In this document: positions 1,635-28,444 of the stretch, in pieces | Numbering within the stretch: the first letter of the stretch is position 1 | Layout of the letters: each line of letters begins with the position of its first letter | Virus record (IMG/VR): IMGVR_UViG_3300036846_000155 | Location: 1 to 35,928 of that record | Reading direction: 5' to 3' (one strand) | DNA length: 35,928 bases | Source: a virus | Program-made: the position numbers and the translations under genes | Notes under the pieces: generated by a model | Told to the model about the DNA's origin: nothing | What the model saw: the letters and a program-made list of their open reading frames with translations, nothing else | The model's database searches: none

Positions 1635-2111
1635 ATGCCAACCCGGGATCTGGACAGGAAACGCGAGCGAGAGCGCCGGTACCGAGAGGCGAACCGGGAG
1701 AAACTGCGCAAGTATCACCGTGAGTACAAGCGCTCCTGGGACAAGGCGAACCGGGAGAAGACGCGCAGTTATCAGCGGCGCCATGATCTGAAACGCCGGC
1801 ACGGGCTCGATGCAGCCGCGCTGGCGGCAATGTGGCAGGCGCAGGGCGAACGCTGTTATCTCTGCATCCAGCCGCTGGCCCTCTCCCAGGTTGTCATCGA
1901 TCACGACCACGCCTGCTGCCCGCCGAAGTTCTCCTGCACTTACTGCCGACGTGGGCTCGCATGTAACCGGTGCAACTCGCTCATTGGCTACGTGGATGAG
2001 GACATGAACCTGCTGCGGGTGATCGCCGGCAACCTGGACCGGGTATCAGCCGCGACTAGGCACCGTACTGCCGCTAAGCCGCAGCAAACTGAACTGGAGG
2101 CGACCCGATGA
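1635..2111 (+). CDS. Endonuclease VII-like (recombination endonuclease VII family) protein
   Basis: 158-residue putative structure-resolving or homing-type endonuclease. The first ~60 residues are a highly basic helical stretch built from repeated Y-R-E/NREK motifs, probably a DNA-binding arm. The C-terminal half carries the Endo VII zinc/catalytic signature: CYLC, then DHDHACC, then RGLACNRCNSLIGY, that is two CxxC pairs flanking a DHDH. The start abuts the stop of the translocase gene, and the end overlaps the next gene by ATGA, so all three are translationally coupled. A clear paralogue lies at 16190-16753. The biological role (mobile homing gene or genuine phage recombination nuclease) cannot be decided from sequence. 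Confidence 0.85.
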   Translation: MPTRDLDRKRERERRYREANREKLRKYHREYKRSWDKANREKTRSYQRRHDLKRRHGLDAAALAAMWQAQGERCYLCIQPLALSQVVIDHDHACCPPKFSCTYCRRGLACNRCNSLIGYVDEDMNLLRVIAGNLDRVSAATRHRTAAKPQQTELEATR

Positions 2112-2779
2112 CAGATAGTGACACGCGCGTGGAGACGTTCAAGACGATCCCCGGGTTCTCCTGGTACGAGTTCGGCGACCGCGGCACCATCCGCTCAATC
2201 GACCGGACCGTCAACGGGAAGCCTTACCGGGGCACCACGCTCAGCCCGAGCAGCCAGAACCAGGGATACCTGAAGCTCGGTATCGTCCACGACGAGTACG
2301 GGAAGGTCACCCGCACCGTCCACACCCTCATCTGTGAGGCGTTCCACGGGCCCCGGCCGCCTGGGCTGGAGGCGCGGCACCTGAATGACGACCCGCTGGA
2401 CAACCGGGCGGAGAACCTGGCGTGGGGCACGAAGGCGGACAATGTGGCCGACCGGATGCGCAACCACCCGGCCACGCCGAAGCCGCCTAAAGTGTGCGTC
2501 CGCTGCAGCCAGCCCTTCGAGGGCAGCGGGAAGCGCTGCCATCCGTGCGTGACGGAGATCGGCGAGAAGGCGGCGACCCTGCTGGAAGCCGGGGTGGATC
2601 TGGACGAGGCGTGCCGCCGGCTGAGCTATCCGAGCGAGACCGGGCTGCACAAGCTGGCGCGCCGGTACGGCGGCTACGGCGTGTCATCACAGCCCGCTCC
2701 GCCGCTGCCATCACAGACGGTGACGGACCGCCGGGGCGCGCTCGCTACCCTGCGTGACAGGCTGCGGGGCCAGCGGTGA
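2108..2779 (+). CDS. NUMOD4-type HNH endonuclease with zinc ribbon and HTH-like tail
   Basis: 223 residues. The N-terminus (IPGFSWYEFGDRGTIRSIDR, about residues 14-33) matches the NUMOD4 DNA-binding module that precedes homing HNH nucleases. The HNH core follows at about residues 75-105: HTLICEAFHG, then ARHLNDDPLDNRAENLAWG, which has the conserved His and paired Asn of the HNH_3 type. After it come a four-cysteine knuckle (CVRC...CHPC, about 129-145) and a helix-turn-helix-like segment (about 150-185). The start overlaps the upstream Endo VII-like gene by ATGA. The family acts on double-stranded DNA as a site-specific or nicking nuclease; the target is unknown. Confidence 0.82.
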   Translation: MTDSDTRVETFKTIPGFSWYEFGDRGTIRSIDRTVNGKPYRGTTLSPSSQNQGYLKLGIVHDEYGKVTRTVHTLICEAFHGPRPPGLEARHLNDDPLDNRAENLAWGTKADNVADRMRNHPATPKPPKVCVRCSQPFEGSGKRCHPCVTEIGEKAATLLEAGVDLDEACRRLSYPSETGLHKLARRYGGYGVSSQPAPPLPSQTVTDRRGALATLRDRLRGQR

Positions 2780-5607: not shown

Positions 5608-6606
5608 CTAAGTGGGCATGTTGCTGTGGGGGCTGGTGTGCGGGTTCACCGGGCAGGGCAGTGCGAGCTTGAGACAGTCGGTCAGCAGGTCCGTCAGGCC
5701 GCCGTCACCCGCTTGCCAGCCGTCGAGGAAGTCGCCGTGCGCCTGGTACCACGGCATCTCCGTCCCACCGGCGGCCTCGAACCCGAACGCCGGTGCGACC
5801 TGTGACCCGGCTGGGCACACCGCGCCGGGGCAGGGGGTGACGATCCCGGTGTGGAACCGGACGTTCAGCAGCGGCAGGACCCGGCTGAACGGGGCCACGC
5901 ACTTAGGCCCGAGGACGTTACCTGCCGGGTAGGCGAAGTCCGCGGGCGTGGTGCCGGTGCCGTCCCAGCAGCGGGGGAAGATGACCCGCAGCACGATGCC
6001 GTCCTGGTCGGCGTTCCCGCTGGTGCTGATCCAGTGCGTGCAGTCGTACGGGTACTGCTCAAACGGGGAAGAGCCGCCGCACGCCCACGCGATGTTCCCC
6101 ACGGGCTGTGGCCCGGTGGCGTCGTGGCTGCCGCCGACCGCTTCCTCGCCGGCGGGGATGACGGTGAGCGCGGCCCGGGACGCGCCCTGCAGCCCGTAGT
6201 AGGCGCGGAGGTTGGTGTAATGGCACACCTGTGTGCCGTCCGGCTGAGTGCTACATGGCATCCCCGCCGGGCTGTAGGTCTGCGTCTCACCCGCATGCAG
6301 GAGCAGGGTGGGCGCCCAGTACGCGGCGGTGTCGGTGGCCGTGGTGCAGGACGTCGCACCGGGCCCGGCGGCTTGCAGACTGGCCGGGGTGGAGTTCTCG
6401 TCCAGGCCGGTGGCGCCGAAGAAGTCGTGATAGTGGGCGGTGGTGGTGCTGCCAGGGTCAATGATCGGGTCGATGGTGGCGCTGGCCCGCGATGGCAGGC
6501 AGTGGATCCAGAAGTTGTCCGTCGCCGCTGCGGCTGGCTGCGCCTGCGCGAAGACGGCCCCCGCGGCCAGGGCCAGTGCCGCCGCGAGGCAAGCGAGGCG
6601 GCGCAT
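5608..6606 (-). CDS. Secreted DUF1996-domain protein
   Basis: 332 residues from ATG 6606, which overlaps the upstream stop (ATGA). A clear Sec signal peptide is present: basic MRR, a hydrophobic Ala/Leu core and an AAAA-T cleavage region near residues 27-29. The mature part shows DUF1996 features: NFWIHC, the HYHDFFGA signature near residue 65, AYWAPTLL near 105, and twelve cysteines, consistent with disulfide bonds in an exported protein. DUF1996 proteins are known from fungi and actinobacteria and are presumed extracellular; their activity is not established. Here it is expressed from the tail-fibre/lysis boundary, so it is probably made late and exported before lysis. It could be a host gene captured by the phage. 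Confidence 0.78.
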   Translation of the reverse strand: MRRLACLAAALALAAGAVFAQAQPAAAATDNFWIHCLPSRASATIDPIIDPGSTTTAHYHDFFGATGLDENSTPASLQAAGPGATSCTTATDTAAYWAPTLLLHAGETQTYSPAGMPCSTQPDGTQVCHYTNLRAYYGLQGASRAALTVIPAGEEAVGGSHDATGPQPVGNIAWACGGSSPFEQYPYDCTHWISTSGNADQDGIVLRVIFPRCWDGTGTTPADFAYPAGNVLGPKCVAPFSRVLPLLNVRFHTGIVTPCPGAVCPAGSQVAPAFGFEAAGGTEMPWYQAHGDFLDGWQAGDGGLTDLLTDCLKLALPCPVNPHTSPHSNMPT

Positions 6607-7316
6607 CACGCGACTCGCACGGGCCACGCCGTACGGCAGGTGATCGTCGGCGCACCAGTGGTGGCAGCCCACTTCGCCTGGAAGGTGAGCGCCTCGCTGA
6701 CGGTGGAGTCGGCGGTGATGGCGGCAGACCCGTTGCCGGAGGAGACGCCGACCGTGTTGTTCGCTGCCGTGCCTGGGATGATGTTGTTCGTGATCTGGGT
6801 GGCGTTGAACTGCCAGCCCACGTTCCAGGAACCTGAGGCGCCGGGGGCGTTGACTTCAAGCCAGACGGCGGCGTTCCACCGGAACGCGGCGGAGATCGCG
6901 AACACGGTGGCGTCAATCACCTGCGCGGACCCGATCGTGACGCCACCGAGCTGCGGCTGAAGTGACAGCGCCTGCTGCGTCGATCCCCATGTGCCATACC
7001 CGAACATGGTGAACTGGTAGATGCTGCCCGCCTGTGCGTCGGCGCCGGGGACCGTGTAGCTCGCGAGGTTCGTGAAGGCGGCAGCGGTGACGGTGACGGC
7101 GGACGTGGCCGCCAGCTGGCCGCCCATCTGCCGCCACGTCCCCGGTGAGCCCCCAGCGGAGCAGATGAACACCTTCCCGTAGATGTCCACCACGAAATCA
7201 CCAGTGGCGTAAGGGCCGGCGGTGGGAGCACCGCCGAGGGTGCCGCCGATCCACCGGGCTGGCCAGTCGGCCCCCGGCAGTGCCGCCGGTATCCCATCCC
7301 GCGCGAAACTGGGCAC
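6606..7316 (-). CDS. Putative minor tail/fibre tip protein
   Basis: 236 residues from GTG 7316, directly after the upstream TAG, with GGCGGTGA as a possible ribosome binding site. It contains a short early motif (YATGDFVVDIYGKVFICSAG, about 38-57) typical of actinophage fibre proteins, followed by a ~170-residue beta-rich, Gly/Ala/Thr-rich domain without charged clusters. This composition and its place in a run of ATGA-linked appendage genes suggest a trimeric fibre or tip domain that contacts the host. The exact role is unknown. It overlaps the DUF1996 gene by ATGA. Confidence 0.55.
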   Translation of the reverse strand: MPSFARDGIPAALPGADWPARWIGGTLGGAPTAGPYATGDFVVDIYGKVFICSAGGSPGTWRQMGGQLAATSAVTVTAAAFTNLASYTVPGADAQAGSIYQFTMFGYGTWGSTQQALSLQPQLGGVTIGSAQVIDATVFAISAAFRWNAAVWLEVNAPGASGSWNVGWQFNATQITNNIIPGTAANNTVGVSSGNGSAAITADSTVSEALTFQAKWAATTGAPTITCRTAWPVRVA

Positions 7317-9019: not shown

Positions 9020-10495
9020 TTAAAGGCTGAGCGCGTTGAAGTCGAGACGCCCCGCTACCGGGTCGTCGAGGGTGAGGAACCCGGTCCCGGAGACTGGGTT
9101 GCCGTAGCGGGACGCGTCGGTGAGGTTCCACACCGTCTGCCACGCCGACGACGCCGTGTCGAACGTGTGGCTGATCCCGGTGATGAACTCGCCCTTGGTG
9201 ATCACCAGCGCCCCGGCTGTGGTGGTCAGCGATTCGGACGCGATGCCGGTGCCGCCCTGGTCGGTGATGGTGGTTATCACCTGGTCAAGGATCAGGTCCC
9301 CCGGGGTCGCTGGGGCGAACGCGTGGGGCCGTTTGGTCACCTGGATGCGGTCGCCCATGTCGCGGCCCAGCACCTGCGGCCACAGGTCGTCAGGCTGCGC
9401 GGCCGGGTCGATCGTGACCGTGTCGAACCTGTTCTCATTTGATTTGGAGATGAACAGGATCCACTGCGCCCAGGTGAGGGCGTCGGAGTCGGCGACGAGG
9501 ATCAGGTCGGTGCGGCTGTAGGTACGGGGGAACAGGTATTTCGCGATCGACGCGGCGTCGGTGACTTCCTGCACCACACCCCCTACGCGGGTGGCCTGGA
9601 TGTCGTTGGCGAGGGTCGTGTCGTCGTCGGCGCGGCCGATGCCCGCGAGCGGCAGCTCGGCGCCGCCCGGCTGGTCGCCGAAGAATGCCTGGATGGTGGT
9701 GGACGCGGGGAGGGTCGTGAGGGCTCTGCGGTTGCGGTACACCACCGCGCCGGCGGGGCTCGCGTACAGCCAGCCGACCTCGGAGTCGGATGTGATCTGC
9801 ATGAGGTTGAGCGGGCTGTCGCCGTACAGGGTGCCCTGGACGGCGGTGTCCCCGGTGGCGATGGTGCGCTTGTCGGTGGAGGTGTACCAGCCGGCCGAGT
9901 TGAGGATGCGGGTGATGCGTGCGCCGCTGAGCTCGCCCGTGCCGAGGGCACTGGACAGCGGCGGGAGGGTGATCCCGGCGAGGACTTTGAACAGGTCCGT
10001 CGCCGACAGGGTGACTTCGGAGTACCCGGCCTCGTAATCGGTGGCGGTTTCGAGCCACCCGTCGGCGAACCCGGAGAACAGCGGGTAGGTGATCCCGGCG
10101 TAGACGGCGCGGATCCGCACCGGCACCATCGCCGTCAGCCGCGTCGCCCCCCCGGCGACGTAGGGCCCGTTGAGGTTGTCGGGATCGAAGCGGGCGTCGG
10201 AGTTGTCGAGGGTGATGGTGGCGGTCCCGGCCTGGAACTGGATCAGCGGGCCCTGCAGCCGCGTTGAGGGCCGGGTGGTGGTGAAGGCGAGGACATAGGG
10301 CGAGATGTCGGTCCAGATGTCGTTCGTGCCGAGGACGTTGACGTCTAGCCGCCCGCTGGTGGGGTCGTCGAGGATGAACGTGCCCGGCCCGGTGACCGGT
10401 GTCGCGGGGACGAGCGCGGCCTCAGCGATGATCTGCGGCAGGACGACCGTGGCGCTGGGGACGAAGGGCGACCTCTGGCCCGCGAGGAGCGGCAC
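9020..10495 (-). CDS. Minor tail protein (tip complex)
   Basis: 491 residues from GTG 10495, just inside the 3' end of the large fibre gene's intergenic gap. It opens and closes with two copies of a similar segment: FILDDPTSGRLDVNVLGTND near residue 44 and FLTLDDPVAGRLDFNALSL at the very C-terminus, which suggests that equivalent strands bracket the protein. The middle contains features of actinophage minor tail proteins of the tip complex (IQFQAGTATITLDNSDARFD; ITSDSEVGWLYASPAGAVVY). I propose a distal tail or baseplate hub-like component. No lytic enzyme motif is seen. Confidence 0.65.
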   Translation of the reverse strand: MPLLAGQRSPFVPSATVVLPQIIAEAALVPATPVTGPGTFILDDPTSGRLDVNVLGTNDIWTDISPYVLAFTTTRPSTRLQGPLIQFQAGTATITLDNSDARFDPDNLNGPYVAGGATRLTAMVPVRIRAVYAGITYPLFSGFADGWLETATDYEAGYSEVTLSATDLFKVLAGITLPPLSSALGTGELSGARITRILNSAGWYTSTDKRTIATGDTAVQGTLYGDSPLNLMQITSDSEVGWLYASPAGAVVYRNRRALTTLPASTTIQAFFGDQPGGAELPLAGIGRADDDTTLANDIQATRVGGVVQEVTDAASIAKYLFPRTYSRTDLILVADSDALTWAQWILFISKSNENRFDTVTIDPAAQPDDLWPQVLGRDMGDRIQVTKRPHAFAPATPGDLILDQVITTITDQGGTGIASESLTTTAGALVITKGEFITGISHTFDTASSAWQTVWNLTDASRYGNPVSGTGFLTLDDPVAGRLDFNALSL

Positions 10496-10497
10496 CG

Positions 10498-13400
10498 CTA
10501 TCCGCCGAGGTTGACGAGCGAGGTGTAGACGGCGCCGAGGAAGTCGCCGAAGTCGGACGCCACCACCCACCGGCGTGTGCCACCACCGGCGTCGGCGGCC
10601 ATCTTCCAGACCCCGGCGGGGCCGAACAGTTCCGGCAGTTCCCCGTTCGCATCCGTCACGACGGAGGTGATGGCGCCACCGCCGGTGTTCTGCAGGTCGG
10701 TGTACTGGCTGCCGCCGATGAGCGCCGTCCAGAACGTGACCGTCGCCCCGGGTGCGCGCAGCAGGCTATCGGCGGAGAACCCGCCGAATGTGAACGTCCA
10801 GTCAGCCTGCGTGCCGCCGAACTTCCGCCGCCCGGGCGCCTGGATACCGCCGCTGGACGCGATCGATATGGTGAACACTTTCGATGCCGTCGCGGCGCCA
10901 CCGGGCGAACTGTCAGCGACCGCGATCGTGAATGTGGACACCCCGGCGGCGGTGGGTGTGCCGGTGATCGTCCCCGCGGCCGGGTCGAGTGCCAGCCCAG
11001 CGGGCAGGCTCCCGGCGGTTATCCCCCACGCGTACGGGGGGGTGCCGTTCGCCGCGGTCAGCGTCGCCGTGTAGGCCGTCCCGGTGGTGCCGTTCGGCAG
11101 CGTCGCGGTCGTGATCGTCAGCGCGCTGGAGATGGTGATCGACAGCGCGGCGGTCGCGGTCGCGGATACATTGTCAGTCACACGGACCGTGAACGATGAC
11201 GTGCCCGGCGTCGTCGGCGTCCCCGCGATGACACCGGTCCCGGGCGTCAGCGACAGCCCAGCCGGGAGCGTGCCGACCGTGACGGCCCACGTGTAGGGGA
11301 CGGCGCCGCCGGTCGCCTCAAGGATGTTGCTGTAGGAGGCGCCGGTGGTGCCAGGGTCGAGCGCGGCGGTGGTGACAGCCAGCGCCGACGACGAGGTGAC
11401 CGTCAGGGAGAACGCCTTGGTGCCGAACGCGGGTGTCGGGGTCGCTGAGTCGGTCGCTTTCGCGGTGAACGAGAACGGCGAGCCGGCGGTCGTGGACGGG
11501 GTGCCGATGAGCAGGCCACCACCGCCCGTGCCAGTGCCGCCAGAGCCGCTTTGTGTGCCGGCGATACCCTTCCACGTCGCCTTCGTCAGCGGGCCGAGGA
11601 AGTCGTTGATCGACCCGCCGCCGCCGTTAATGCCCGTCGCCCAGTACAGCCAGATGTAAAGCGGCAGCTGCGAGAGGGTGCCCCCGGGGCCGAACGCGGT
11701 CTTCAGGTACGCCAGGTCAGCCTGCAGCCTGGTGTTCTGCGCCGCGTCAGTCCCATACCCGGACAGGCCGAACTCAGTGATTGCCAGTGGCTTCCCCAGG
11801 TTCCTGACATACCCCGTCCACACCCTCCAGCCGTTCGTTGAGCCCATGTCGGGGCCGACGTTGTAGGTGTGCCGGTCGTAGAAGTCGAACCCATACACGT
11901 CGGTCGTGTCGGTCGGCGGTATCCACGCGTTGCTGCCGCCCTGCTGATACCAGGCGAGGTAGGAGGTGGAGATCGTGACGAGCTGCACCGGGGTGACGGA
12001 CTGGGCGTTGTGGACCTTCGTCATCTGATCCCGCCAGCCCGACTGGAACGTCGAGGCGGACAGGCCGCTGCCGCCGGTGTTCTCAGGTTCGGAGTTCCAG
12101 CAGAACCCGACCGCCTGCACCGAATGGGGGATCGACGCGGCGAAGTTGTTGAACGTCGCCTGGCTGGCCAGGTCGTTCCAGCAGATGTAGGTGAACGTTC
12201 CCGGTTTCGCCTGCGTGATCTGGTCCATCAGCGTCCCGGACCAGGAGGACGGCATGCTGGAGAAGAACACTTTGTAGGCGCCGATCGGCCCGATGGTGGG
12301 ATAGGCGGTGGTGAACCCGCCGACGGTCGGGGCGCCCTGCGGTCCCGTGTTCGCGCCGACGAAAGTGAAGTCACCTGAGCCGCCGCCGCCGCCGCCAGGT
12401 TCGAGGGTGAGCCCCGGTGGCAGGCTCCCCGCCGACACGGACCATGTGTACGGCGGTGCGCCGCCGGTGACGTTCAGCTGGTTCGTGTAGGCGACACCCA
12501 CCTGCCCGGCGGTCAGCGGGGACGTGTTGGTGATCGTGACCGTCCCCGCCGGGCCGATCGGCGGGTCCGGCAGCAGCGTGACCAGCAACTCGCCCCACAC
12601 GGCGGTCGCGCCGAGCGTCGCGCCAGCGGTCACCGCGGCCGTCGAGTTGGTGATGACCTGCGTGCCTACCGACATGTAGACGCCGCCGGACACGTGGAGC
12701 CCAGCGTCCATCGCCACCATCGGCGATGCCCACGTGATCCCCGCCGACGCCGACCCGGACGTGATCACCGCCAGGACGAGCTCGTTGTTGTTCGCCAGGC
12801 CCATCGAGGTGGTCGCCGACGGGGCGCTGCTCGTCCGCAATGCGGTCCCGGTCTGGTCGAGCGCTACGGTCTGGTTGATCCCGGCACAGGCGATGACCTC
12901 AACGAACTTCGCATACGTCGTCCCCGACCACGTGACCGTCACCGTCGAGACGCCGCTCGTCAGGACCGCTGTCGCGTGCAGCGACTGGTAGATGTAGCAC
13001 GCCATCCCGTTAGCCGCGGCAAAACTGCCGATCTGCGTCCACGTATGCGAGCCCGTGTCGGTGACGCCGGTGGGGGTGACGGCGGACCCGGCACCGCAGC
13101 CGACGCAGCAGAACAGCGCGTCGCCGGAGTTCGTCGTCTTGGTGATGTTCACCACGGTCGAGCTGCTGCCCGCGGCCTGCGCGGTTGAGCCGATCGCGTA
13201 GGGGACGCCGACACCCGCGTTCTGCAGCCCGACCGTCTCGGTCGCCGACACCTGGCTGCTCGAGTCGGTCCAGGTGGACGCGAACGTGGACGTGCCGTCG
13301 GCGGAGGCGAAGCCGATCGCCACACTCGTGCCCGCCGACGACACCGCGGACCCGGCGGTGAACGCGCCACCCGGCGTCAGGGTGCCCGTCACCGCGCCGT

Positions 13401-13857
13401 CGAACGTGAGGACCAGGTTCCCGATCGCCGGCGCCGCACCCAGCGCCGGGGCGGCCTGTGACGTGGACGCGGTGTTCGAGTTGCCCACCGCGGCATTGGT
13501 GACGGTGCCGAGGGCGTAGCGGAAGATGTCGACGCAGATCGCCGTGACCGTGGCGGCCGCGAACGGGGTGAGGGTGATCGTCGCGCCATCAGGCACATTC
13601 GCCGCGGCCACGTAAAAGAACGTCTGGATCCAGCGGGCGTTCGCCGACCCGAGCTGCTGCTCCTTGATCGTCGTGAAGTTCGTAAGGTTCGTGGAGTCCT
13701 GCACCACCATGCCGTTCGCCACGTGGGTGCCGTCGGACATGCAGCAGGCGACGATCACATCACCGGCGATGATCCCCGTACCGGCGGGGATCGTCGCGGC
13801 GAGCGCGCCGCCGCTGCCGGTGGCGCCGATGGAGACCGTGTTGACGCGGACGCTCAA
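10498..13857 (-). CDS. Large modular fibre-like protein with glycosidase-like domain nested in an Ig-like domain
   Basis: 1119 residues from TTG 13857 (GAGGAG upstream). Order of modules: two related ~210-residue beta domains (about 1-215 and 216-440); the first half of a putative Ig (He_PIG-type) domain ending in GSLPPGLTLEP (about 450-487); a Gly-rich linker; a ~280-residue TIM-barrel-like domain (about 495-770) with clan GH-A-like features, WNSEPEN near 592 as acid/base candidate and ITEFG near 693 as nucleophile candidate; a second Gly-rich linker; the second half of the Ig domain (IGTPSTTAGSPFSF); two intact He_PIG domains (about 830-1000); and a ~115-residue C-terminal beta domain (ADWTFTFGG...). 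It follows the tape measure gene, so it is likely a tail fibre or spike that binds or trims host glycans. The substrate is unknown. Confidence 0.72.
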   Translation of the reverse strand: MSVRVNTVSIGATGSGGALAATIPAGTGIIAGDVIVACCMSDGTHVANGMVVQDSTNLTNFTTIKEQQLGSANARWIQTFFYVAAANVPDGATITLTPFAAATVTAICVDIFRYALGTVTNAAVGNSNTASTSQAAPALGAAPAIGNLVLTFDGAVTGTLTPGGAFTAGSAVSSAGTSVAIGFASADGTSTFASTWTDSSSQVSATETVGLQNAGVGVPYAIGSTAQAAGSSSTVVNITKTTNSGDALFCCVGCGAGSAVTPTGVTDTGSHTWTQIGSFAAANGMACYIYQSLHATAVLTSGVSTVTVTWSGTTYAKFVEVIACAGINQTVALDQTGTALRTSSAPSATTSMGLANNNELVLAVITSGSASAGITWASPMVAMDAGLHVSGGVYMSVGTQVITNSTAAVTAGATLGATAVWGELLVTLLPDPPIGPAGTVTITNTSPLTAGQVGVAYTNQLNVTGGAPPYTWSVSAGSLPPGLTLEPGGGGGGSGDFTFVGANTGPQGAPTVGGFTTAYPTIGPIGAYKVFFSSMPSSWSGTLMDQITQAKPGTFTYICWNDLASQATFNNFAASIPHSVQAVGFCWNSEPENTGGSGLSASTFQSGWRDQMTKVHNAQSVTPVQLVTISTSYLAWYQQGGSNAWIPPTDTTDVYGFDFYDRHTYNVGPDMGSTNGWRVWTGYVRNLGKPLAITEFGLSGYGTDAAQNTRLQADLAYLKTAFGPGGTLSQLPLYIWLYWATGINGGGGSINDFLGPLTKATWKGIAGTQSGSGGTGTGGGGLLIGTPSTTAGSPFSFTAKATDSATPTPAFGTKAFSLTVTSSSALAVTTAALDPGTTGASYSNILEATGGAVPYTWAVTVGTLPAGLSLTPGTGVIAGTPTTPGTSSFTVRVTDNVSATATAALSITISSALTITTATLPNGTTGTAYTATLTAANGTPPYAWGITAGSLPAGLALDPAAGTITGTPTAAGVSTFTIAVADSSPGGAATASKVFTISIASSGGIQAPGRRKFGGTQADWTFTFGGFSADSLLRAPGATVTFWTALIGGSQYTDLQNTGGGAITSVVTDANGELPELFGPAGVWKMAADAGGGTRRWVVASDFGDFLGAVYTSLVNLGG

Positions 13858-13867
13858 GACTCACTCC

Positions 13868-16150
13868 TCATGTGCGCCACGACTTCCCGGCCCCCTTCTC
13901 GAACTCTTTGATCGCGTTGACGACGCGGCGGCCGGCTTCCCGTTCACCGCCGGGGAGGACACCGATGTTGATGACGTACGTGGAACCCCCGCCGCCGCCA
14001 ACGCGCTCGGGCTTGCCGGTGGTATTCAGCGCCATCGACAGCCCGACCGGGAGATAACCGCCCTGGTCGTACCAGTTGAAGGCTGCCTCGTGCCGGGCGG
14101 CGCCGATCGGGTCGCCGTAACCGGGCGTGGACCGGATGTAGCCGATCATCCACGAGATCTGCGCGGCCGGGTTCGACTGCGGCGGATTCGCCGCTGGGCC
14201 CATCTTCCCTGGTGGGAGGGCCTGGGGGATGCCGTACGCGCCGGAGGACGGGTTGCGGGCGAACTGGTTCCAGCCCGATTCCCGCATGGCTACGTAGTTC
14301 CACGCCGCCCACTCCGCGCCGGATCCCCACGCAGGCATCATGCGCCGCGCCAGCGCCGCGTTAGCGCCGGCGTTGCCGCCGCCGGGCCCGGGGGTGCCGA
14401 AACCGCTGCTGCTTGAGATGGCGCTCTGCATGGCGCCCGTCATCGCCTTCTCCATCGCGGATGTGAACTGCGACTGGAACTGCGCGCCGAACGCCGACGT
14501 CTGCCCCGGCAGGCCGGCGAGACCGCCAGCGGCGAAGCCGGGGATCATCCCGCGCAGGTGATCGGTGAGGCCCGCACTGACCATCTTCGCCGGGACGATC
14601 AGCTCGCCTTTACTCGCGCGGATCAGCACATCATCAGCGGTCGGCCCGGTGCCCCGGTTGACGTAGTACCCGGTTGCGGCCGGCCGGGCCAGCGACGGCG
14701 TGCTGGATGTGTTCGACCCGAAGATCGAGAAGTGGCCGACGCCCTTCTCGGTGATCGTGACCGCTTTGCTCTTCAGCTTGTCCAGCGCACCCCGCAGCGC
14801 ATCCACCTCGGCTGCCGCGAACTTACTGTGAGCAGCGTGCGACTGCAGCCAGCGGATCTGATCCTGGATGATCCGGCTAGCAGCATCGACGTTGTGGTGG
14901 ACGTTCACTTCCTGCTGCGCGAACGTCAGCGCCGACGCCGTCGACTGGATGATCGCCGACCGTGCGGCGAGCGCAGAGTTCCGGTTGGAGTCCAGGGAAG
15001 CGGTATTCGCGATGAGCGCCTGGTTGGCGGCGTGCTGCGCCTGCCGCCACGCGATCTGATCCTGTTCGCTGGTCAACAGCCCCGTGGACAGGCCCTTCAG
15101 CGCGGCGGTCAGCAGCGTGACGGCTGTCTGCTCGCTCATGGTCGCGGCATGAGCGGCCTGCAAGCCGCCGGTGAACGTGCCGAGCGGGTGGATCAGATCC
15201 GCGGTCGCCGCATGCCCCTGGATGAGTCGCTGGTTCAGCGCCGCCTGCTGCGCCGCCATCGCCATCGCGGTCTTCTCGGCCTTGTCACCGGCGTAGCCGT
15301 ACTTCAGGAAATCTTGCGCCGCATCGAGGATCGAGTTGGTGGTGTTAGCTTTGTGCGCCTGCGCCTGGATGAACCGCGCATATGCATCCGCGGCCTTCAC
15401 CGCGCCGTCAGCAATGGCGAGGAACCCGTGCGCGACCGGCTGCAGGTCCTGCAGCAGCGTGGGGAGCGTCTTCAGCAGATCGATCGCCAGGTTGCCGATC
15501 TGCTGGAAATCGGGCCCGACGTTCGCGGCCATCCATGAGAAGAACGACTGCCACTGCCCCGACTGGAACTCCTTGTCCACCCGGTTCAGGAGGGTACCGA
15601 GCGCGACCCCAGTCGCCTTGGCGATCGGCTCTACGTCTTTCATCAGGTGTCCGGCGATCCGTATCCCATCGCCGAACACGGACAGCACCTGCGGCTGCAG
15701 CGCCTGCTCAAACGCGTGATACTGCTTGCCCAGGCCCAGGATCGACACGGCTAGTTTCTGCTGCTCCGGGTTCAGCTTCGCCATGTTCGCCTGCAGGCCA
15801 CCCGCGGCCTTTGACGCTTTCAGCACCGGAGCGACCGCACCTGCGGCGGCGGCGCCGAACCCGAGCAGCCCGGTGCCGACGGTGACAAGGATCGGCGACA
15901 GGGCAACGCCAGCGCCGATGAGCAGGCCCATGCCCGACGCGCCGCCCAGGCCGCCGAGCAGCGGTGTCGCGGTGCTGGCGCTCTTGCCCACGTTGTCGAT
16001 GGACTTCGCGTTCTTGTCCATCGACTTGCTGTTGTCATCGACCGACTTAGACGTCTGGTCGACCTTCTGCCGGAACCGGTCAAACGCAGCGGAAGCGTTC
16101 TTGTCCGTGGCTATAATTTCGAATATGAGCTGCTCGAAGTTGGATGGCAA
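13868..16150 (-). CDS. Tape measure protein with soluble lytic transglycosylase domain
   Basis: 760 residues from TTG 16150 with GGGGGATGA upstream. The N-terminus is a charged helical segment (IIATDKNASAAFDRF..., with many Lys-Ser repeats), followed by hydrophobic Gly/Ala stretches (about 65-115), both typical of tape measure proteins, then long helical regions. Near the C-terminus (about 600-715) is an SLT-like domain: AWNYVAMRESGWNQ, with Glu near 623 as catalytic acid, and SGAYGIPQ, the usual GxxGxxQ neighbourhood. Such domains cut peptidoglycan locally during DNA entry. By the usual ratio of about 0.15 nm per residue the tail would be roughly 110 nm long. It is the largest gene between the tail chaperones and the tip proteins. 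Confidence 0.88.
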   Translation of the reverse strand: MPSNFEQLIFEIIATDKNASAAFDRFRQKVDQTSKSVDDNSKSMDKNAKSIDNVGKSASTATPLLGGLGGASGMGLLIGAGVALSPILVTVGTGLLGFGAAAAGAVAPVLKASKAAGGLQANMAKLNPEQQKLAVSILGLGKQYHAFEQALQPQVLSVFGDGIRIAGHLMKDVEPIAKATGVALGTLLNRVDKEFQSGQWQSFFSWMAANVGPDFQQIGNLAIDLLKTLPTLLQDLQPVAHGFLAIADGAVKAADAYARFIQAQAHKANTTNSILDAAQDFLKYGYAGDKAEKTAMAMAAQQAALNQRLIQGHAATADLIHPLGTFTGGLQAAHAATMSEQTAVTLLTAALKGLSTGLLTSEQDQIAWRQAQHAANQALIANTASLDSNRNSALAARSAIIQSTASALTFAQQEVNVHHNVDAASRIIQDQIRWLQSHAAHSKFAAAEVDALRGALDKLKSKAVTITEKGVGHFSIFGSNTSSTPSLARPAATGYYVNRGTGPTADDVLIRASKGELIVPAKMVSAGLTDHLRGMIPGFAAGGLAGLPGQTSAFGAQFQSQFTSAMEKAMTGAMQSAISSSSGFGTPGPGGGNAGANAALARRMMPAWGSGAEWAAWNYVAMRESGWNQFARNPSSGAYGIPQALPPGKMGPAANPPQSNPAAQISWMIGYIRSTPGYGDPIGAARHEAAFNWYDQGGYLPVGLSMALNTTGKPERVGGGGGSTYVINIGVLPGGEREAGRRVVNAIKEFEKGAGKSWRT

Positions 16151-20197: not shown

Positions 20198-21069
20198 GCG
20201 GCGAACACCTGGTCGGCGAACATGAGCCCGTTCAGCGAGCCGTTCAGCAGCTCCACCGCCCGGTTCGGGACGGCGAACCCGAACCCGGGCAGTGTCGCCA
20301 GGTCAGCACCGGCCATCGATGGCCGCGTCGACGGCCCGTGCTGCGTTTCCCACAGATGCTGCAGGATGATCCGCGCCGCCAGATTGAACGCCGGCGGGAC
20401 CGATGTGCCCCACCCGGCCACGTAGACGACGGTCACGACGGACGAGTCGGATGCGAACGGGGCGAAGTACGGGTAGCCGGTGATCGTGCGGGCCGTACGG
20501 CCACCCGGGCTGATGTCGAGGCCGGCGGAAATGTCCACCGCCATCCCCGTGACCGACGTGATCGACGTGACCGACACCAGGGGCCGCTGCCGCACTTTCA
20601 GGATCCTCCGCCACGACTGGAGGACGGACCGTTCGGTGATGGTGCGGTTGACCAGCGGGCCGCCGGTCATGCTTTCGAGCGAGGTTTCGATCGTGGCGAC
20701 GTACAGGCCGATCTCGGCGTCGTAGGTGGTGGTGGCCTGCGAGATGTTCAGCTGATCTTTCGCGTCCTGCAGCGGCAGGACCGCAGGCTCGCGGCGGTCG
20801 TAGACGTCGAAGTCGCCGATGGATTCGCCCGCGCCGGCGCCGGTGGATGTCCACCAGTACTGGTAGTGCCCGATCTGCCCCAGGTCGGCGACCGGGATGT
20901 CCTGGTGGTAGGTGCCGAGGCTGTCGTGGGTGGGCGAGTTGTAGACCTGGGTGGTGGCGTCCGGTTTTGAGACGGTCAGGCTGATCGCGCCCGCATCGGT
21001 GAGGGCGCCGGTGACATCGCGGACGGTGGTCTTGACCTGAACGGGCTGGCCCTGGCTGTAACGCGCCAC
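20194..21069 (-). CDS. gp6-like head-tail connector with N-terminal Ig-like domain
   Basis: 291 residues from GTG 21069, overlapping the upstream TAG (TAGTG). The first ~95 residues form a small beta domain (VQVKTTVRDVTGALTDAGAI; SLGTYHQDIPV; HYQYWWTSTG) similar to Ig-like carbohydrate-surface modules. The rest has the helical start of gp6-like connectors (LPLQDAKDQLNI, DAEIGLYVATIETSLESMTG), a central beta strip, and a C-terminal helix bundle (FNLAARIILQHLWETQHG). It should sit under the portal as DNA-packaging adaptor. The Ig-like extension is uncommon for this protein and could decorate the neck. Confidence 0.7.
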   Translation of the reverse strand: MARYSQGQPVQVKTTVRDVTGALTDAGAISLTVSKPDATTQVYNSPTHDSLGTYHQDIPVADLGQIGHYQYWWTSTGAGAGESIGDFDVYDRREPAVLPLQDAKDQLNISQATTTYDAEIGLYVATIETSLESMTGGPLVNRTITERSVLQSWRRILKVRQRPLVSVTSITSVTGMAVDISAGLDISPGGRTARTITGYPYFAPFASDSSVVTVVYVAGWGTSVPPAFNLAARIILQHLWETQHGPSTRPSMAGADLATLPGFGFAVPNRAVELLNGSLNGLMFADQVFAA

Positions 21070-24000
21070 TAGCTGGGTCCTCCTGTCCGCTGGTCGGTCG
21101 CTGTGAGAGTGCCGCCGCTGCCCCCGCCGCTGGCCGTCGCCGCGGTCAGTGCCGCCGTGGGGACGTCGCTGGCGGTGAGCGCGCCGACGGTGAACGGCAC
21201 GACGAACACCGGTGCGCCGGCGTTCCACGCCGCCCGTCCTCCCCGTGGCCGGGTGGGAATCCGCGCCCGGGACGGTTTGCGCAGCGGGTAGAACGGCGGC
21301 CCCGCCTGGGCGAACGTGCCGCGGCTCCAGGCGCACCGGCCAGCCCGGAACGGGCCGGGGCGGAACGCCGCCACGGGACCCCGCAGGGGGGACACAGGGG
21401 GGCCTGTTTGGCTGCGGGTGCCGCGGTTCCCAGCGCAGCGGCCCCGTGGCGGCGGCTGTGGATGGCACCTGACCGGCCCGTGGAGCGGGTAGACCGGCGG
21501 TCCGGACAGGACACCGGTGAACGTGAACGTGCCGGCGCGGCCCTGGGCGCGGCCGCCGGGGAGCTGGCTGGGCCGCGTGGCGCGGCACGGGCCGCGCAGC
21601 GGCGTGACCGGCGGCCCGGCCTGGGCGAAAGTGCCGGCGCTGTGCTGAACCTGGCCACGGCGCGACGGCGGCGGCAGGTACGCCCGCACCGGCCCGTGCA
21701 GCGGGTAGACGGGTGGCCCGGACGTGGGGGCCGTCGATGTGAACGTGCCGGCGCGGCCCTGGGCCCGGCCACGCGGTGGCAGCGGCCTGATGACTGCGGC
21801 GACGGGGCCGCGGAGCGGGGTGAGCCGTGGCCCGGCCTGGGCGTAGACGCCGCTGCGGCCGGCGGTGTGGCCTTTGACGAACGGCCCCGGCCTGCGGGCG
21901 GTGACCGGGCCTTCCAGCGGCGTGACCGGCGGCCCGGCCTGGTTACGGACGCCCGCGCTGACGCCAGTGACCCGGCCTTTACGCTGCGGCCCCGGGAGCC
22001 GCGCCTGAACCGGGCCGTGGAGCGGGTACACCGGCGGGCCGGCCTGCGCGGCTGGGGCGGTGAAGGCGGCGTAACCGGGCTGCGGCCACGTCTGGAACGG
22101 GATCCCGCCCGGCATCCCCGGCGCACCGGGGAACCAGCCCGGCGGCATGTAGACCGCGCTCGCCGGTGGCGAGGATGGGACCGCCGGGGCCTGGAACACC
22201 AGCACCCAGTCCGCGCCGCCGCCAGCGTTCGTGGTGGAGTTGCTCCACGTCGGCCCGCCGGTCGCCGACGTCTGCGCACCGGAGACAGGGTCGGCCCACG
22301 TCGCGAACCAGCCCGGCGCCAGGAGCGCCGTGTTGACCGTGACCGCGCTCGCGCCGTTCGGCATGTAGACGACGGCGAGGGTGCCGTCCTGCGTTTTCGA
22401 CGCGGTGACGTAGGTGTTGACGGTCGCGCCGCCGAACCCGCCGGTCCGCCCGGTGTACTCCAGCCCGGTATCCGACGTTGCGAGACCCAGCGCCGTCCCG
22501 CGCCCCGCCGTGACGAACACCGAGTTCAGGTCGGGGACTAGCTTGTTCCACCCCACCCACGAGGAGAACGTGTCCCAGATGACCTTGATGTCGGCGTTGT
22601 CGAACTGGTTCGTCGTCAGCCCAGCGGACGCGCCAGCGGTCCACGGGTGGAGCGGCTGGTTGCCGTAAACAGTGCCCCGCGACCCGCTGGACAGCGCCCA
22701 CCAGTGCAGGTTCCGCTCATAGTCGCGCGACGTCTGCGCGTAGGCGGTGTCGCCTTCGTAGTCGCCGTCGCCGTACAGGACCAGCAGCGGGTTCGCCTCG
22801 GTGTAGGACTGCTGTACCTCGGGGTAGCCGCCGCAGTAGGAGTAGATCCAGTTGAACTGCGCGTTCCCGGTGCCCCAGGTTTGCGCGGTGCCGGAAAGGC
22901 CGAGGAACCGCGAGTCGCCCTCGGTCAGGTTCTCGATGGACATCAGGTGCGTGTCACCTGCGGCGCGGATCGCGGCGGCGACGTTGCTGAGGATCGCGTC
23001 GTTACCGGTGATCGACTGATCCCAGTCGTTGCCCATCAGCCAGATCACGTTCGGCGCCGACGCATACCTGCCCGCGAGGGCGGTGCCGTAGGTGGTGGCC
23101 TGGGCGAGCGTGATCCCGTTGAGCATCGCCCCGGTGTTCGTGATCGCCCACCGGTTCGTCGGGGTGAGGATCACCGTCAGGCCGTGCGCCTGCGCGCTGG
23201 TGACGCAGTAATCGAGCCGCTGCCACCAGGCGTTGTTCATGTTCCCGATGACGCCACTCACCCATGGGCTGATCCCATCCCATGTGAAGCCGTTCACCGG
23301 GCAGCCGGGGACATCGGAGCTGACCGACGCGCCGACGATCGCGGCGTTGAACCCCTGCCGCGCGCGGGTGGAGAAGTACAGGTCGATGTCGGACTGCCAC
23401 GTCGTCCCGCCGCCGTTGACGCCGGCGTTGATCGCCAGGCCCCAGATCGAGTCGCCGCGCATGATGATCGGCGCATTGAACTGGTCGGTGAAATACTGCT
23501 GCGCCCCGGACCCGGCGACAGATGTGATGAACCGGGGGACGACCGGCTGCACAAGCGAATGCTCGGGCTGCGGCTTGCGGACGAACGGGCTGTTACCCGG
23601 TTCCGAGACCTGGATGGCGCCGGGGAACCAGCCCGGCGGAACCGGCGGCGGCGGCGTCGCATACGGCGGGGTGAACCCGACGACAGGCGGGCTGACCTCG
23701 ACCGCCATGGCGCACCACGGGACGTTGGCCGAGGCCCACGCCATCGTCACCGTAGAACCGGTGGACGGTGAGGTGGCGCCAGCCGCGTTCCCGACGTCGT
23801 CGCCGGCGAGGCCGCGCTGGTTGATGATAAACCGCGACGTGGACGGGGCCGTGGCCGAGGTGATGTTCCCGCCGGCCGCAGCACCGCCGACGCACAGCCC
23901 ACCGGTCGTGGTGGTTGCGGTCGTGACTGAGGGGGCCGCAGAAGACCCGGTGGCCGTGGCTGCCGTGCTGTGGCTGGCCGCGCCCGTGAAGGCGATCGAC

Positions 24001-24326
24001 CCGCCTTCCATGTCGTCGGGCGTGCCGCCGGACGGGGTGACCGTGACCGTGTTCGCGCCGGTCGCGACGTTCAGCAGCCACCACGCCTGCAGAAACCCCT
24101 GCGTCGTGGCGTTCGAGTGGACGGTGCCGAGCGACGTCATCGACACGCCGCCGAACGTGGCGGTCATCGAGAACCCGCCGTCGGGGTTCGCGTCCAGCGC
24201 GGCGAGAACGATGACGCCCGTGTTCGCGCCACCAGCGACGATGGTGTGGGTCCACGTCAGGGTCGTGCCGCCGGTGGTGCCCTGACCGGCCGAGGAGGGC
24301 CCTACCGAGTCAAACGCGACTGCCAC
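21069..24326 (-). CDS. Giant modular protein: beta domain, DUF4038 apiosidase-like domain, collagen-binding-like domain, 8 repeats
   Basis: 1085 residues from GTG 24326 (GAGGGG upstream). Residues 1-215 form a beta domain similar to those at the N-terminus of the 10498-13857 protein. A Pro-rich hinge with PPGWFPGA (about 230) follows. Residues about 288-600 fit the DUF4038/GH140 apiosidase-like TIM barrel: RGDSIWGLA, DLYFSTRARQGFNA, ILTPTNRWA, NVIWLMGNDWD, VLYGDGDYEGD. Residues about 600-712 fit the putative collagen-binding domain often paired with DUF4038 (VNTYVTASKTQDGTLAVVYM). A second PPGWFPGA hinge comes next, then eight ~34-residue repeats (762-1037) and a Thr/Ala/Gly tail. It is encoded between head and connector genes, so it is probably a virion surface protein, perhaps on the capsid or neck, acting on or binding glycans. 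No signal peptide is present. Confidence 0.75.
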   Translation of the reverse strand: MAVAFDSVGPSSAGQGTTGGTTLTWTHTIVAGGANTGVIVLAALDANPDGGFSMTATFGGVSMTSLGTVHSNATTQGFLQAWWLLNVATGANTVTVTPSGGTPDDMEGGSIAFTGAASHSTAATATGSSAAPSVTTATTTTGGLCVGGAAAGGNITSATAPSTSRFIINQRGLAGDDVGNAAGATSPSTGSTVTMAWASANVPWCAMAVEVSPPVVGFTPPYATPPPPVPPGWFPGAIQVSEPGNSPFVRKPQPEHSLVQPVVPRFITSVAGSGAQQYFTDQFNAPIIMRGDSIWGLAINAGVNGGGTTWQSDIDLYFSTRARQGFNAAIVGASVSSDVPGCPVNGFTWDGISPWVSGVIGNMNNAWWQRLDYCVTSAQAHGLTVILTPTNRWAITNTGAMLNGITLAQATTYGTALAGRYASAPNVIWLMGNDWDQSITGNDAILSNVAAAIRAAGDTHLMSIENLTEGDSRFLGLSGTAQTWGTGNAQFNWIYSYCGGYPEVQQSYTEANPLLVLYGDGDYEGDTAYAQTSRDYERNLHWWALSSGSRGTVYGNQPLHPWTAGASAGLTTNQFDNADIKVIWDTFSSWVGWNKLVPDLNSVFVTAGRGTALGLATSDTGLEYTGRTGGFGGATVNTYVTASKTQDGTLAVVYMPNGASAVTVNTALLAPGWFATWADPVSGAQTSATGGPTWSNSTTNAGGGADWVLVFQAPAVPSSPPASAVYMPPGWFPGAPGMPGGIPFQTWPQPGYAAFTAPAAQAGPPVYPLHGPVQARLPGPQRKGRVTGVSAGVRNQAGPPVTPLEGPVTARRPGPFVKGHTAGRSGVYAQAGPRLTPLRGPVAAVIRPLPPRGRAQGRAGTFTSTAPTSGPPVYPLHGPVRAYLPPPSRRGQVQHSAGTFAQAGPPVTPLRGPCRATRPSQLPGGRAQGRAGTFTFTGVLSGPPVYPLHGPVRCHPQPPPRGRCAGNRGTRSQTGPPVSPLRGPVAAFRPGPFRAGRCAWSRGTFAQAGPPFYPLRKPSRARIPTRPRGGRAAWNAGAPVFVVPFTVGALTASDVPTAALTAATASGGGSGGTLTATDQRTGGPS
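21216..22043 (-). repeat. Eight in-frame coding repeats of 32-38 residues
   Basis: Each unit follows the pattern (A)GPP-V-x-PL-x-GPV-x-A-x-x-P-x-P-x-x-x-GR-x-x-G-x-x-G-T-F-x-Q. Units 1, 4 and 6 carry VYPLHGPV; units 2, 5 and 7 carry V(T/S)PL(E/R)GP. Units 3 and 5 end in a longer TFT-x-T spacer. The repeats are Pro/Gly/Arg-rich and very basic, so an extended, possibly polyanion-binding stalk is likely. Confidence 0.85.
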
Positions 24327-26243: not shown

Positions 26244-26747
26244 CTATGCGTCAGGCTTCACCGCGGCGGCCCGGACGTCCGCCGGGTACGGCTGCGCATC
26301 CACCACCACCTGTTCCCACCCGGCGTCACGCAGGACGCGGCCGAGCTCGGCGGGGCGGATGTTCGCGTAATGCTCACCGGGCAGCAGCCGGAACTCCCCA
26401 TCCACCGCCGAGTGCGGCGGCCGTCCCGGCGCGGCGGTCGTAACGATGAACCGGCCACCCGGTTTGCACGCCCTGTAGGCGGTGCGGACGATCGCCCGCC
26501 ACGCCGCCGTGTGCTCGAACGTCTCAGCGCAGATCACCACATCCCAGAGTCCCCCGGCGGGATCCCAGGTGGCCGCGTCGGCGGTGATGTCCACGCCGGG
26601 GCCGCTGCGCAGGTCCAGGGTGGTCCACTTCGCGGCGGGGAACAGCGGCTCCGGGGAGCCGTTGATGTCGCGGCCGCCAAGATCAAGCACCGACACGGGT
26701 TCGGTGGTGGCGTACCGGGCTATCCACGCCATCGCCTGCTCATGCAT
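26244..26747 (-). CDS. Class I SAM-dependent methyltransferase
   Basis: 167 residues from ATG 26747; the frame is open upstream, but the part before overlaps the glycosyltransferase gene. Motif I is VLDLGGRD (about 21-28), motif II TLDLRSGPG (about 45), acidic motif III DAATWDP, motif IV DVVICAETFEH (about 72-82) and motif V KPGGRFIVTTAAPG. This is the Methyltransf_11/25 fold, with a variant GGRD in place of the usual GCGTG. Such genes commonly sit with glycosyltransferases in actinophages. It most likely methylates a sugar or protein on the virion. It overlaps the glycosyltransferase gene by eight bases, so the products are probably co-expressed. Confidence 0.8.
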   Translation of the reverse strand: MHEQAMAWIARYATTEPVSVLDLGGRDINGSPEPLFPAAKWTTLDLRSGPGVDITADAATWDPAGGLWDVVICAETFEHTAAWRAIVRTAYRACKPGGRFIVTTAAPGRPPHSAVDGEFRLLPGEHYANIRPAELGRVLRDAGWEQVVVDAQPYPADVRAAAVKPDA

Positions 26748-28272
26748 GGGCGGCAAGCCTGGCCGCGAACAGCGCCTCGTCCTCATCCACGTGCTCACGG
26801 CCGAGTTCGTACGTGTCGTCGTCGGGCGCGAGGCCCCACAGCGGGTGACGGTGCTCCACCTTCGCATGCTGGGCGGCGACCCACGCGCCGCGCTGCTTCG
26901 CCACCGTCACCAGCTCGTCGTCCACAAACCAGTGGGCGTACCCCTCGTGCGCGACCACTTCCGGGCCGTCCCACGATGCGCCCACCTCGTCCACGTAGGC
27001 GCGGCGGACCAGCAGGTGGGTGGCGTGCTCACCGGAAGTTACCCGCGGGTTGTGCAGGTCGTTCGTGCCGATCACGTCGGCGCCGTCGCGGGCGGCGTGC
27101 TGTGCGTGATCCAGCCACCCCGGCTGGAACCGGACGTCATCACCGGTGAGGAACAGCCACGGCTCGGACGTGTGGGCGTAGCCGAGGTTCACCTTCTCCG
27201 CGAACGTCCCCGGCCGGTCAATGGCCGGCCACGGGATGACGGTCGCGCCCGCGTCCATCCACGCCTGCTGCGTCTCCAGGTCGTTGTCGTCAGCGACCGC
27301 ATACACCTGCGCCAGCTCGGCACCCGACGCGGCGAGCGACTCCATGAACGGCGCCGCGTTCTGCGGCCGCCACAGCACCGGGACGATGACCGCTGTCTTC
27401 TCGGTCGCCGCCGGCACCGGTGGGGTCAGCTGCGCGAGTGTCAGCTGCCCGTAGTAGTCCGCCTCGCCGAGCCACAGATGTTTCATGTGGCTCGTCCGCA
27501 CCCCGGTATGGACATACACGGGGATGGCGAGCGGGTCAGCAGCAGCACGCAGGCACAGCGCCAGATCCTCCGACAGGATCTTCCCCGTCGTCGTGTTCGG
27601 GATCCGGTCATACCAGACCGGCCCGTACTGCGCGGCGATGCGCTCGAACACTGACCGGTGGATCAGGACACACGCCGACCCGGTCCCCGAGCACCTGGTG
27701 AGCTGGTCCGGCGGGTATTTCCACCGGACCATGAACCCCATCTCGCCGTCATCGGTGATGTGCCAGTCGAAGATCGTCGGCACGGCGCGGGTCCGCCACC
27801 CGCCGAGCCCGTCGGGCTCGTCTTCCCGCTGGGTGAACGCCAGGGCGCCCACGATCGGCCGTTCCACCGGGTCGGCGGCGGCGAACAGCCGGTCCACCGT
27901 GTCCGGGCCGAACCCCATGTCGGTGTCGATCCAGAACAGCCAGTCAGTCTCGTCCTGTTCGAGGAACAGTTTCACGACCCTGTTCCGCGCCTCGGGGAGC
28001 CCGTCGGTGCCGCATGTCATGGCGATGGGCTTGCTGCGCATGATCCGGCCTTCGCGGACGAGGTCCCAGCCGATCATCTCGATCATGCAGTGGTGCCACG
28101 AGTAGGCGACGTCGTGCCGGTTGTGGACGTAGGCGACGGTGACCGCGCCGTCCCGCTCGTCAACGTTGCCCCCAGACGGCCCCAGGACGGCCCCAGACGG
28201 CTTCCCCGCCTCGACCTGGTGTAGCGCGTCCTGGGGCCGCGTCCGGTCAGCCACGGCCGTCTGCGCGGGCAT
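26740..28272 (-). CDS. Two-domain GT-A glycosyltransferase fusion
   Basis: 510 residues from ATG 28272; GTG 28254 is an alternative, and neither has a strong ribosome binding site. The first domain (about 30-265) has the GT-A signature WIDTDMGF near 116 with a DxD, and SEDLALCLRAA near 230. The second (about 280-480) is GT2-like: AVIVPVLWRP, FLTGDDVRFQPGW with acidic DDV near 378, FVDDELVTVAKQRGAW and a late HRHPLWG...DDTY. Each domain has its own DxD-type motif, so one chain may add two sugars or act on two acceptors. No membrane segment is present, so it is cytoplasmic. Located within the head-gene region, it may glycosylate capsid or tail proteins, as is known for some mycobacteriophages; the acceptor is not shown by sequence. 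Confidence 0.8.
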   Translation of the reverse strand: MPAQTAVADRTRPQDALHQVEAGKPSGAVLGPSGGNVDERDGAVTVAYVHNRHDVAYSWHHCMIEMIGWDLVREGRIMRSKPIAMTCGTDGLPEARNRVVKLFLEQDETDWLFWIDTDMGFGPDTVDRLFAAADPVERPIVGALAFTQREDEPDGLGGWRTRAVPTIFDWHITDDGEMGFMVRWKYPPDQLTRCSGTGSACVLIHRSVFERIAAQYGPVWYDRIPNTTTGKILSEDLALCLRAAADPLAIPVYVHTGVRTSHMKHLWLGEADYYGQLTLAQLTPPVPAATEKTAVIVPVLWRPQNAAPFMESLAASGAELAQVYAVADDNDLETQQAWMDAGATVIPWPAIDRPGTFAEKVNLGYAHTSEPWLFLTGDDVRFQPGWLDHAQHAARDGADVIGTNDLHNPRVTSGEHATHLLVRRAYVDEVGASWDGPEVVAHEGYAHWFVDDELVTVAKQRGAWVAAQHAKVEHRHPLWGLAPDDDTYELGREHVDEDEALFAARLAAHA

Positions 28273-28444
28273 CGGTTGGGCGCCGGTGATAGCCGGAGAA
28301 TCCCATCCCAGTTGATGCCGAGGTGTTGTTGATCTCCGTCTTAGGCGGCGGTGGCGGTTCCGGCGGCGGCGCATCAAGGCGGCGGTATTCGGTGATCGCC
28401 TCATGCAGTGCCTTGACGGCTAGCCGTATAAGCGGGTTAGCCAC
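28247..28444 (-). CDS. Small hypothetical protein with polyproline stretch
   Basis: 65 residues from GTG 28444, overlapping the upstream stop by eight bases. A helical N-terminus (NPLIRLAVKALHEAITEYRR) leads to a run of prolines (APPPEPPPPPK) and a polar tail. No family is recognised. The same kind of small helix-proline protein occurs next to virion genes in actinophages. Its 3' end overlaps the glycosyltransferase start. Confidence 0.5.
   Translation of the reverse strand: MANPLIRLAVKALHEAITEYRRLDAPPPEPPPPPKTEINNTSASTGMGFSGYHRRPTDARADGRG

Follow-up and report, generated by a model that had tools for sequence, protein, structure and literature searches.

A tail protein gene of an uncultured soil virus, probably an actinobacterial phage, was found to encode an immunoglobulin-like (Ig) domain of the He_PIG family that is interrupted, at one of its loops, by a second domain with the predicted fold and active site of a glycoside hydrolase (GH). 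The gene lies in a stretch of 35,928 bp (IMG/VR record IMGVR_UViG_3300036846_000155), hereafter called the window, which holds a siphovirus-like structural module on the minus strand with genes for terminase, portal, protease, capsid, tail tube and tape measure. It runs from 13857 to 10498 on the minus strand (TTG start at 13857, stop at 10498) and codes for 1119 amino acids (aa); its coordinates had been given correctly in a first-pass annotation made from the sequence alone. We consider it likely that the product is a tail-tip protein in which a GH26-like glycosidase of clan GH-A is plugged into a loop of a He_PIG stalk and cleaves polysaccharide on the host surface. The arrangement was found in six sequences, and the enzymes seated in this one loop belong to two lineages.

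The interrupted Ig domain

The N-terminal half of the split domain (aa 439-487, 12397..12543; all features of the protein are on the minus strand) ends in SLPPGLTLEP and matches, when searched alone, positions 3-55 of the Pfam He_PIG profile with 23.8 bits. The C-terminal half (aa 782-822, 11392..11514), starting with LLIGTPSTTAG, matches positions 59-96 with 18.4 bits. The two halves thus correspond to complementary parts of the profile, and only about three He_PIG positions are missing between them. When they were joined in an artificial construct imitating the empty insertion site, the match extended over positions 3-96 of 96 and reached 34.4 bits (E = 3.1e-8), passing the cut-off of 24. 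Two intact He_PIG domains follow the interrupted one, as had been described in the first-pass annotation, namely D2 (aa 825-910, 11128..11385, 109.8 bits) and D3 (aa 912-1001, 10855..11124, 109.2 bits).

The whole insert comprises aa 488-781, which amounts to 294 residues with both linkers included and is close to the 285 estimated before. The Gly-rich linkers noted at both junctions can be read directly in the sequence, as GGGGGGSG on the N-side (aa 488-495, 12373..12396) and as SGSGGTGTGGGG on the C-side (aa 770-781, 11515..11550). A home-made hidden Markov model (HMM) of He_PIG from six sequences gave 66.0 bits for the joined halves, or 74.9 bits when three linker glycines were kept, and the other segments of the protein scored 53.0 bits on average and 69.5 bits at maximum, so that this splice test is not clean. 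We therefore rely on the complementarity of the Pfam matches and on the recurrence of the architecture.

The segment aa 438-911 was modelled with AlphaFold2. In this model, the N half has a predicted local distance difference test score (pLDDT) of ~77-85 and the C half of ~71-89, and the strands of the two halves are ordered as in the intact D2. Structure prediction, as suggested in the first-pass annotation, did not yield a single confident model containing both Ig halves and the barrel; the Ig halves are modelled well in one prediction and the barrel in another. A Foldseek search with the window model returned only Ig and cadherin-like matches; these alignments are too short to span the insert and hence do not prove the pairing of the Ig halves.

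Recurrence in related tail modules

Hub-based scans yielded tail modules from >100 viral contigs and from prophages of Streptosporangium, Actinomadura and Planobispora, in whose genomes related hubs were located. Four of the sequences (L082, L083, L170 and L177) encode, in one reading frame, a beta domain, an Ig half, the barrel, the other Ig half, an intact Ig domain and the hub. The halves are likewise complementary in L082 (He_PIG 4-58 and 59-95) and L177 (7-58 and 58-96), and Gly-rich junctions lie at the same Ig loop in all four. A barrel-profile search of 299 genomes from the order of Streptosporangium carneum (Streptosporangiales) revealed a further relative, L218, which has the Gly-rich junction on the N-side as well. 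Over a collinear stretch of 719 residues, which spans the Ig half, the barrel, the second Ig half, two Ig domains and the C-terminal domain, it is 43% identical to the window protein, and its gene is found on a 10-kb contig together with a tape-measure gene and a Dit-like gene. Together with the window, six independent sequences thus carry a barrel within a split Ig domain, and the initial claim that the domain is interrupted at a loop and resumes after the insert is confirmed. An uninterrupted counterpart, the search for which had also been proposed, was found in L105; its Ig domains are intact and directly follow the N-terminal beta domains, the GH being located elsewhere, so that an uninterrupted Ig domain is available for comparison.

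Scans for peptide patterns, using either the complete protein or just the insert, found no relatives among viral or genome contigs, as might be expected if the gene were an assembly chimera or a recent non-functional insertion. The probability of such an origin is nevertheless negligible in our view, given the intact reading frame, the conserved active site and the presence of this architecture on four other contigs, and the chimera was rejected on account of the full-length collinear relative L218.

A different objection would deny that the halves make up a single domain: the N half would be a truncated relic, and the C half would cap a barrel standing in line in the fibre. Such an order does exist in relatives, since the GH is in line in L050, L080, L171, L183 and L047 (as is the barrel of L167, which is not nested either), and it would agree with the failure to model both halves and the barrel confidently together and with the poor Ig part of the L082 model (pLDDT ~40-50). 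However, the halves complement each other with a gap of only about three profile positions and have been kept in six sequences despite divergent barrels, and the strands of both are confidently modelled in the window in the same order as in D2. We regard such an in-line arrangement as improbable.

The inserted domain resembles GH26

Between the linkers lies a predicted TIM-barrel domain (aa 496-769, 11551..12372). The first-pass annotation had placed it in clan GH-A on the basis of its WNSEPEN and ITEFG motifs, and several lines of evidence agree with that assignment. Searched alone, the insert matches the Pfam family Glyco_hydro_cc (PF11790) with 22.3 bits, narrowly passing the cut-off of 21, and within the whole window protein it scores 18.6 bits, which is below that cut-off; the outcome of the profile search that had been advised is thus borderline. 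The profile is matched over part of its length only, and L082, L177, L080, L171 and L105 have no match to this family. When a profile was built from related phage TIM barrels with the insert left out, the insert scored 27.3 bits with the HMMER filters switched off, the whole window protein being unreported under default filters; a shuffle control was run for this reason and gave at most 5.6 bits.

The model of the homologue L082, computed from an 11-row alignment, is a regular (beta/alpha)8 barrel (pLDDT 70-94) in which E161 directly follows strand 4 and strand 7 ends at E251. In a fold search with this model, GH26 came first (2x2y, E = 1.4e-7), followed by GH164, GH113 and GH5, and a profile of 12 barrels compared with the PDB placed GH26 mannanases on top (4yn5, E = 7e-6; 4zxo, E = 2e-4). 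The corresponding residues of the window protein are the predicted acid/base Glu590 in WNSEPEN (12088..12090) and the predicted nucleophile Glu695 in ITEFG (11773..11775), both invariant in A5, A6 and L218. Both Glu columns are invariant across 12 distantly related barrels and L218, down to ~15-20% identity.

The insert was kept out of GH26 itself because neither hallmark of the family is present: the GH26 profile PF02156 did not match it up to E = 10, and the His that precedes the acid/base Glu is missing. Among the relatives, L167 matches PF02156 weakly (E = 0.042), and the His is found in L080 and L167. We accordingly describe the insert, by its profile matches and motifs, as a clan GH-A, GH26-like domain. 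Searches with the insert gave no match in the PDB (phmmer) and none in phages by tblastn, where only chance matches in plasmids appeared. Stand-alone homologues of the barrel are encoded in cellular genomes (L213, L216 and L217). The one at L213:1429-2223 (minus strand) carries HEP and AEWG motifs and is present in two copies in an Actinomadura genome, at distances of ~15 kb and ~30 kb from the ends of the chromosome.

One loop, two enzyme lineages

In the tree of Ig domains, the six split domains fall together with moderate support (89/83). The tree of barrels has a different shape; the barrels of the window and L218 group with that of L105 (100/99), apart from the other nested barrels. Both trees were built on distant sequences and contain long branches. 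An approximately unbiased (AU) test rejected a tree in which all barrels nested in Ig domains form one group (p = 1.2e-5, and p = 0.0005 without L218). The enzymes in the one Ig loop thus represent two lineages. In L105 (L105:6022-10761), the barrel of the window lineage interrupts another carrier, an N-terminal beta domain, in which the break falls at about position 66 of a profile of 212 positions.

Two histories can account for this, either an exchange of enzymes within one split Ig domain or the same loop being struck twice. The findings suggest that this Ig loop is a socket that can be reused to attach enzymes to viruses. With roughly even probability, the loop of the Ig stalk may be a standing socket into which glycosidase lineages have been swapped, as part of a wider actinophage system of enzymes or lectins plugged into loops of Ig domains, N-terminal beta domains and the hub; exchange of the cargo would then be the cause of the two lineages. 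Somewhat less probable to us, though a serious contender, is that different GH lineages were inserted on two separate occasions at the same favourable Ig loop, an account that concerns history only and is compatible with the same present function. The rejection of a single origin of the cargo agrees with separate insertions, and so does the presence of the window barrel lineage in the other carrier of L105, whereas the grouping of the split Ig domains fits one split carrier.

Nested inserts were also found in the hub homologues of the relatives, where they occupy three recurrent loops and measure ~75-400 aa (L087, L091, L105, L113, L115, L117, L120, L123, L124, L128, L130, L131 and L137). They include CBM_4_9 in L105 and L117 and Laminin_G_3 in L124. 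Another hub homologue, of G015 (L048:16744-18849), holds a TIM-barrel-like domain of ~245 aa between ...NLAGPYVTGAS and ATQVQPMVPIRV, and this insert matched no Pfam family. L131 apparently contains three inserts in a single hub. G002 (L044:6984-12305) has two He_PIG domains and a GH26-like barrel (motifs WHEADH and IPELN) that together seemingly interrupt a glycine-rich domain; the first half of that domain matches Gly_rich_2, and joining the pieces changed the score from 26.6 to 27.7 bits, which is almost no gain.

Position in the tail and domain order

The split-Ig gene is the first after the tape-measure gene (13868..16150, minus strand), whose product has a transglycosylase-like C-terminus, and it is followed by the gene of a phrog_5313-like hub or minor-tail protein (9020..10498, minus strand). 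In relatives, the hub is fused to the same modules as the split-Ig protein of the window carries. The first-pass annotation had spoken of a tail fibre protein; a phage tail protein is upheld, and "tail-tip" is preferred over "fibre" because of the position of the gene between those of the tape measure and the hub and because of the fusions in the relatives. The protein would accordingly be located at the tip of the tail in the virion, and the related prophages point to an actinobacterial host. A search of the window protein against PHROG gave no match.

At its N-terminus the protein has two beta-rich segments of ~215 aa each (aa 1-438, 12544..13857), recognised by identity to G013 and L218. 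The first of them shares 51% identity with a protein of phage record G013 (aa 3-214) and 48% with the N-terminus of L218 (aa 22-227). The C-terminal domain (aa 1003-1119, 10501..10851) occurs in tail proteins of Streptomyces phages, recurring near the N-terminus in those of Kromp, Ponzi (there with GH46) and Success.

Proposed function

In the mechanism that we propose, the barrel would be joined into one Ig loop through the two Gly-rich linkers, and the Ig domain would fold from its two halves and serve as the socket. The stalk would continue through D1, D2 and D3, with the enzyme, attached by both ends, probably standing out as a side arm. On contact with the actinobacterial host, the barrel would cut surface polysaccharide during adsorption, and this cleavage may help the tail tip to get to its receptor. 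Both the hydrolytic activity of the barrel and its glycan target are predictions.

Several observations weigh against this proposal. The window's own barrel is modelled at a pLDDT of ~45-70 and displays alternating helices and strands only, and it shares ~20% identity with the barrels that are modelled better. Ser589 precedes the acid/base Glu in the window, as in L218, where GH26 has His. Moreover, the grouping of the carrier Ig domains is not strongly supported.

The barrel might also act as a module for glycan binding or receptor recognition without turnover, similar to the carbohydrate-binding modules (CBMs) that are inserted in evolved Dits. The recognisable binding modules among the related hub inserts (CBM_4_9 and Laminin_G_3) point this way, as do the evolved Dits themselves, whose inserts promote adsorption (PMC10688798), and the replacement of the motif His by Ser in the window. 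Still, strict conservation of both Glu residues in 12 barrels and L218 would be unexpected for a dead enzyme; catalysis is favoured for that reason, and we regard a purely binding role as less likely.

Comparison with known systems

The closest known principle is that of the evolved Dits (evoDit) of lactococcal phages, phages of lactobacilli and Bacillus phages (PMC10688798, PMC6669499, PMC9863714), in which inserted binding modules raise adsorption to hosts covered with exopolysaccharide (PMC10688798, PMC6669499). Common to both are a foreign sugar-active module within a structural tail-tip protein, flexible loops, flanks that align to an uninterrupted relative and inserts of interchangeable types. 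They differ in the carrier, which is here a He_PIG Ig stalk domain without a Dit core, and in the cargo, which is here a glycosidase-type TIM barrel with catalytic Glu residues and no CBM.

The GH26 endo-beta-mannanases (PDB 4yn5, 2x2y, 3cbw, 4zxo) match the group of phage barrels best, by profile as well as by fold, and share with it the (beta/alpha)8 fold, the acid/base Glu at strand 4 and the nucleophile Glu at strand 7. Identity to these enzymes is 10-15%, and unlike them the window domain has no Pfam GH26 match, carries Ser for His and is nested in a tail-tip protein. Ig-like domains on the virion of mycobacteriophage Douge bind mycobacterial surface glycans (PMC13033339). The window protein, which is probably displayed on the virion too, resembles Douge in having Ig-like domains on an actinophage particle, but those of Douge are appended and uninterrupted, whereas an enzyme interrupts that of the window. 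Gp58 of Streptomyces phage Ponzi has the same C-terminal adaptor domain as the window protein and also bears a glycoside hydrolase, its gene belonging to the tail operon and following that of the tape measure; it differs in its GH family (GH46) and has no Pfam He_PIG match.

Insertion of domains at the tail tip was previously known mainly for CBMs in Dit. Here it concerns a catalytic-type TIM barrel in an Ig domain, with one loop used by two lineages and with further carriers in the same tail module. In a literature search, with most subscription journals outside its reach, no phage protein turned up that holds a glycosidase inside an Ig domain; novelty is therefore not proven. The loop represents a naturally tested insertion site, showing where an Ig stalk tolerates ~290 residues and providing working linkers, and it makes testable how phages exchange enzymes for surface glycans without rebuilding the tail. 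Among the tail genes of uncultured soil actinophages, many glycosidases are missed by standard family searches.

Further observations in the window and its relatives

A second probable virion glycosidase is encoded in the window at 21069..24326 (minus strand). Its minor-tail-like N-terminal domain is followed by an apiosidase-like GH (PF13204, E = 6e-27, also GH5 cellulase) and by a long Pro-rich repeat tail that resembles that of L041. The window hub (9020-10498, minus strand) has ~35 extra aa (LILDQVITTITDQGGTGIASESLTTTAGALVITKGEF) that are absent in the relatives and resemble a partial repeat of the next segment. In L050 (L050:5612-8329, G012), a tape-measure homologue contains an insertion of ~177 aa relative to the tape measure of the window, and Actinomadura sp. 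WMMA1423 has two related prophage hub loci (L135 and L136) that lie far apart on the chromosome, each with 39% identity to the query.

Downstream of the tail genes, the window encodes a DUF1996 protein that apparently has a signal peptide (5608-6672, minus strand; PF09362, E = 2e-26). A glycosyltransferase-like gene lies within the structural module (26740-28404, minus strand; phrog_34859, with PF00535 slightly below the cut-off), and an HNH homing endonuclease with NUMOD4 is encoded at the left end (2108-2779, plus strand), on the strand opposite to the module.

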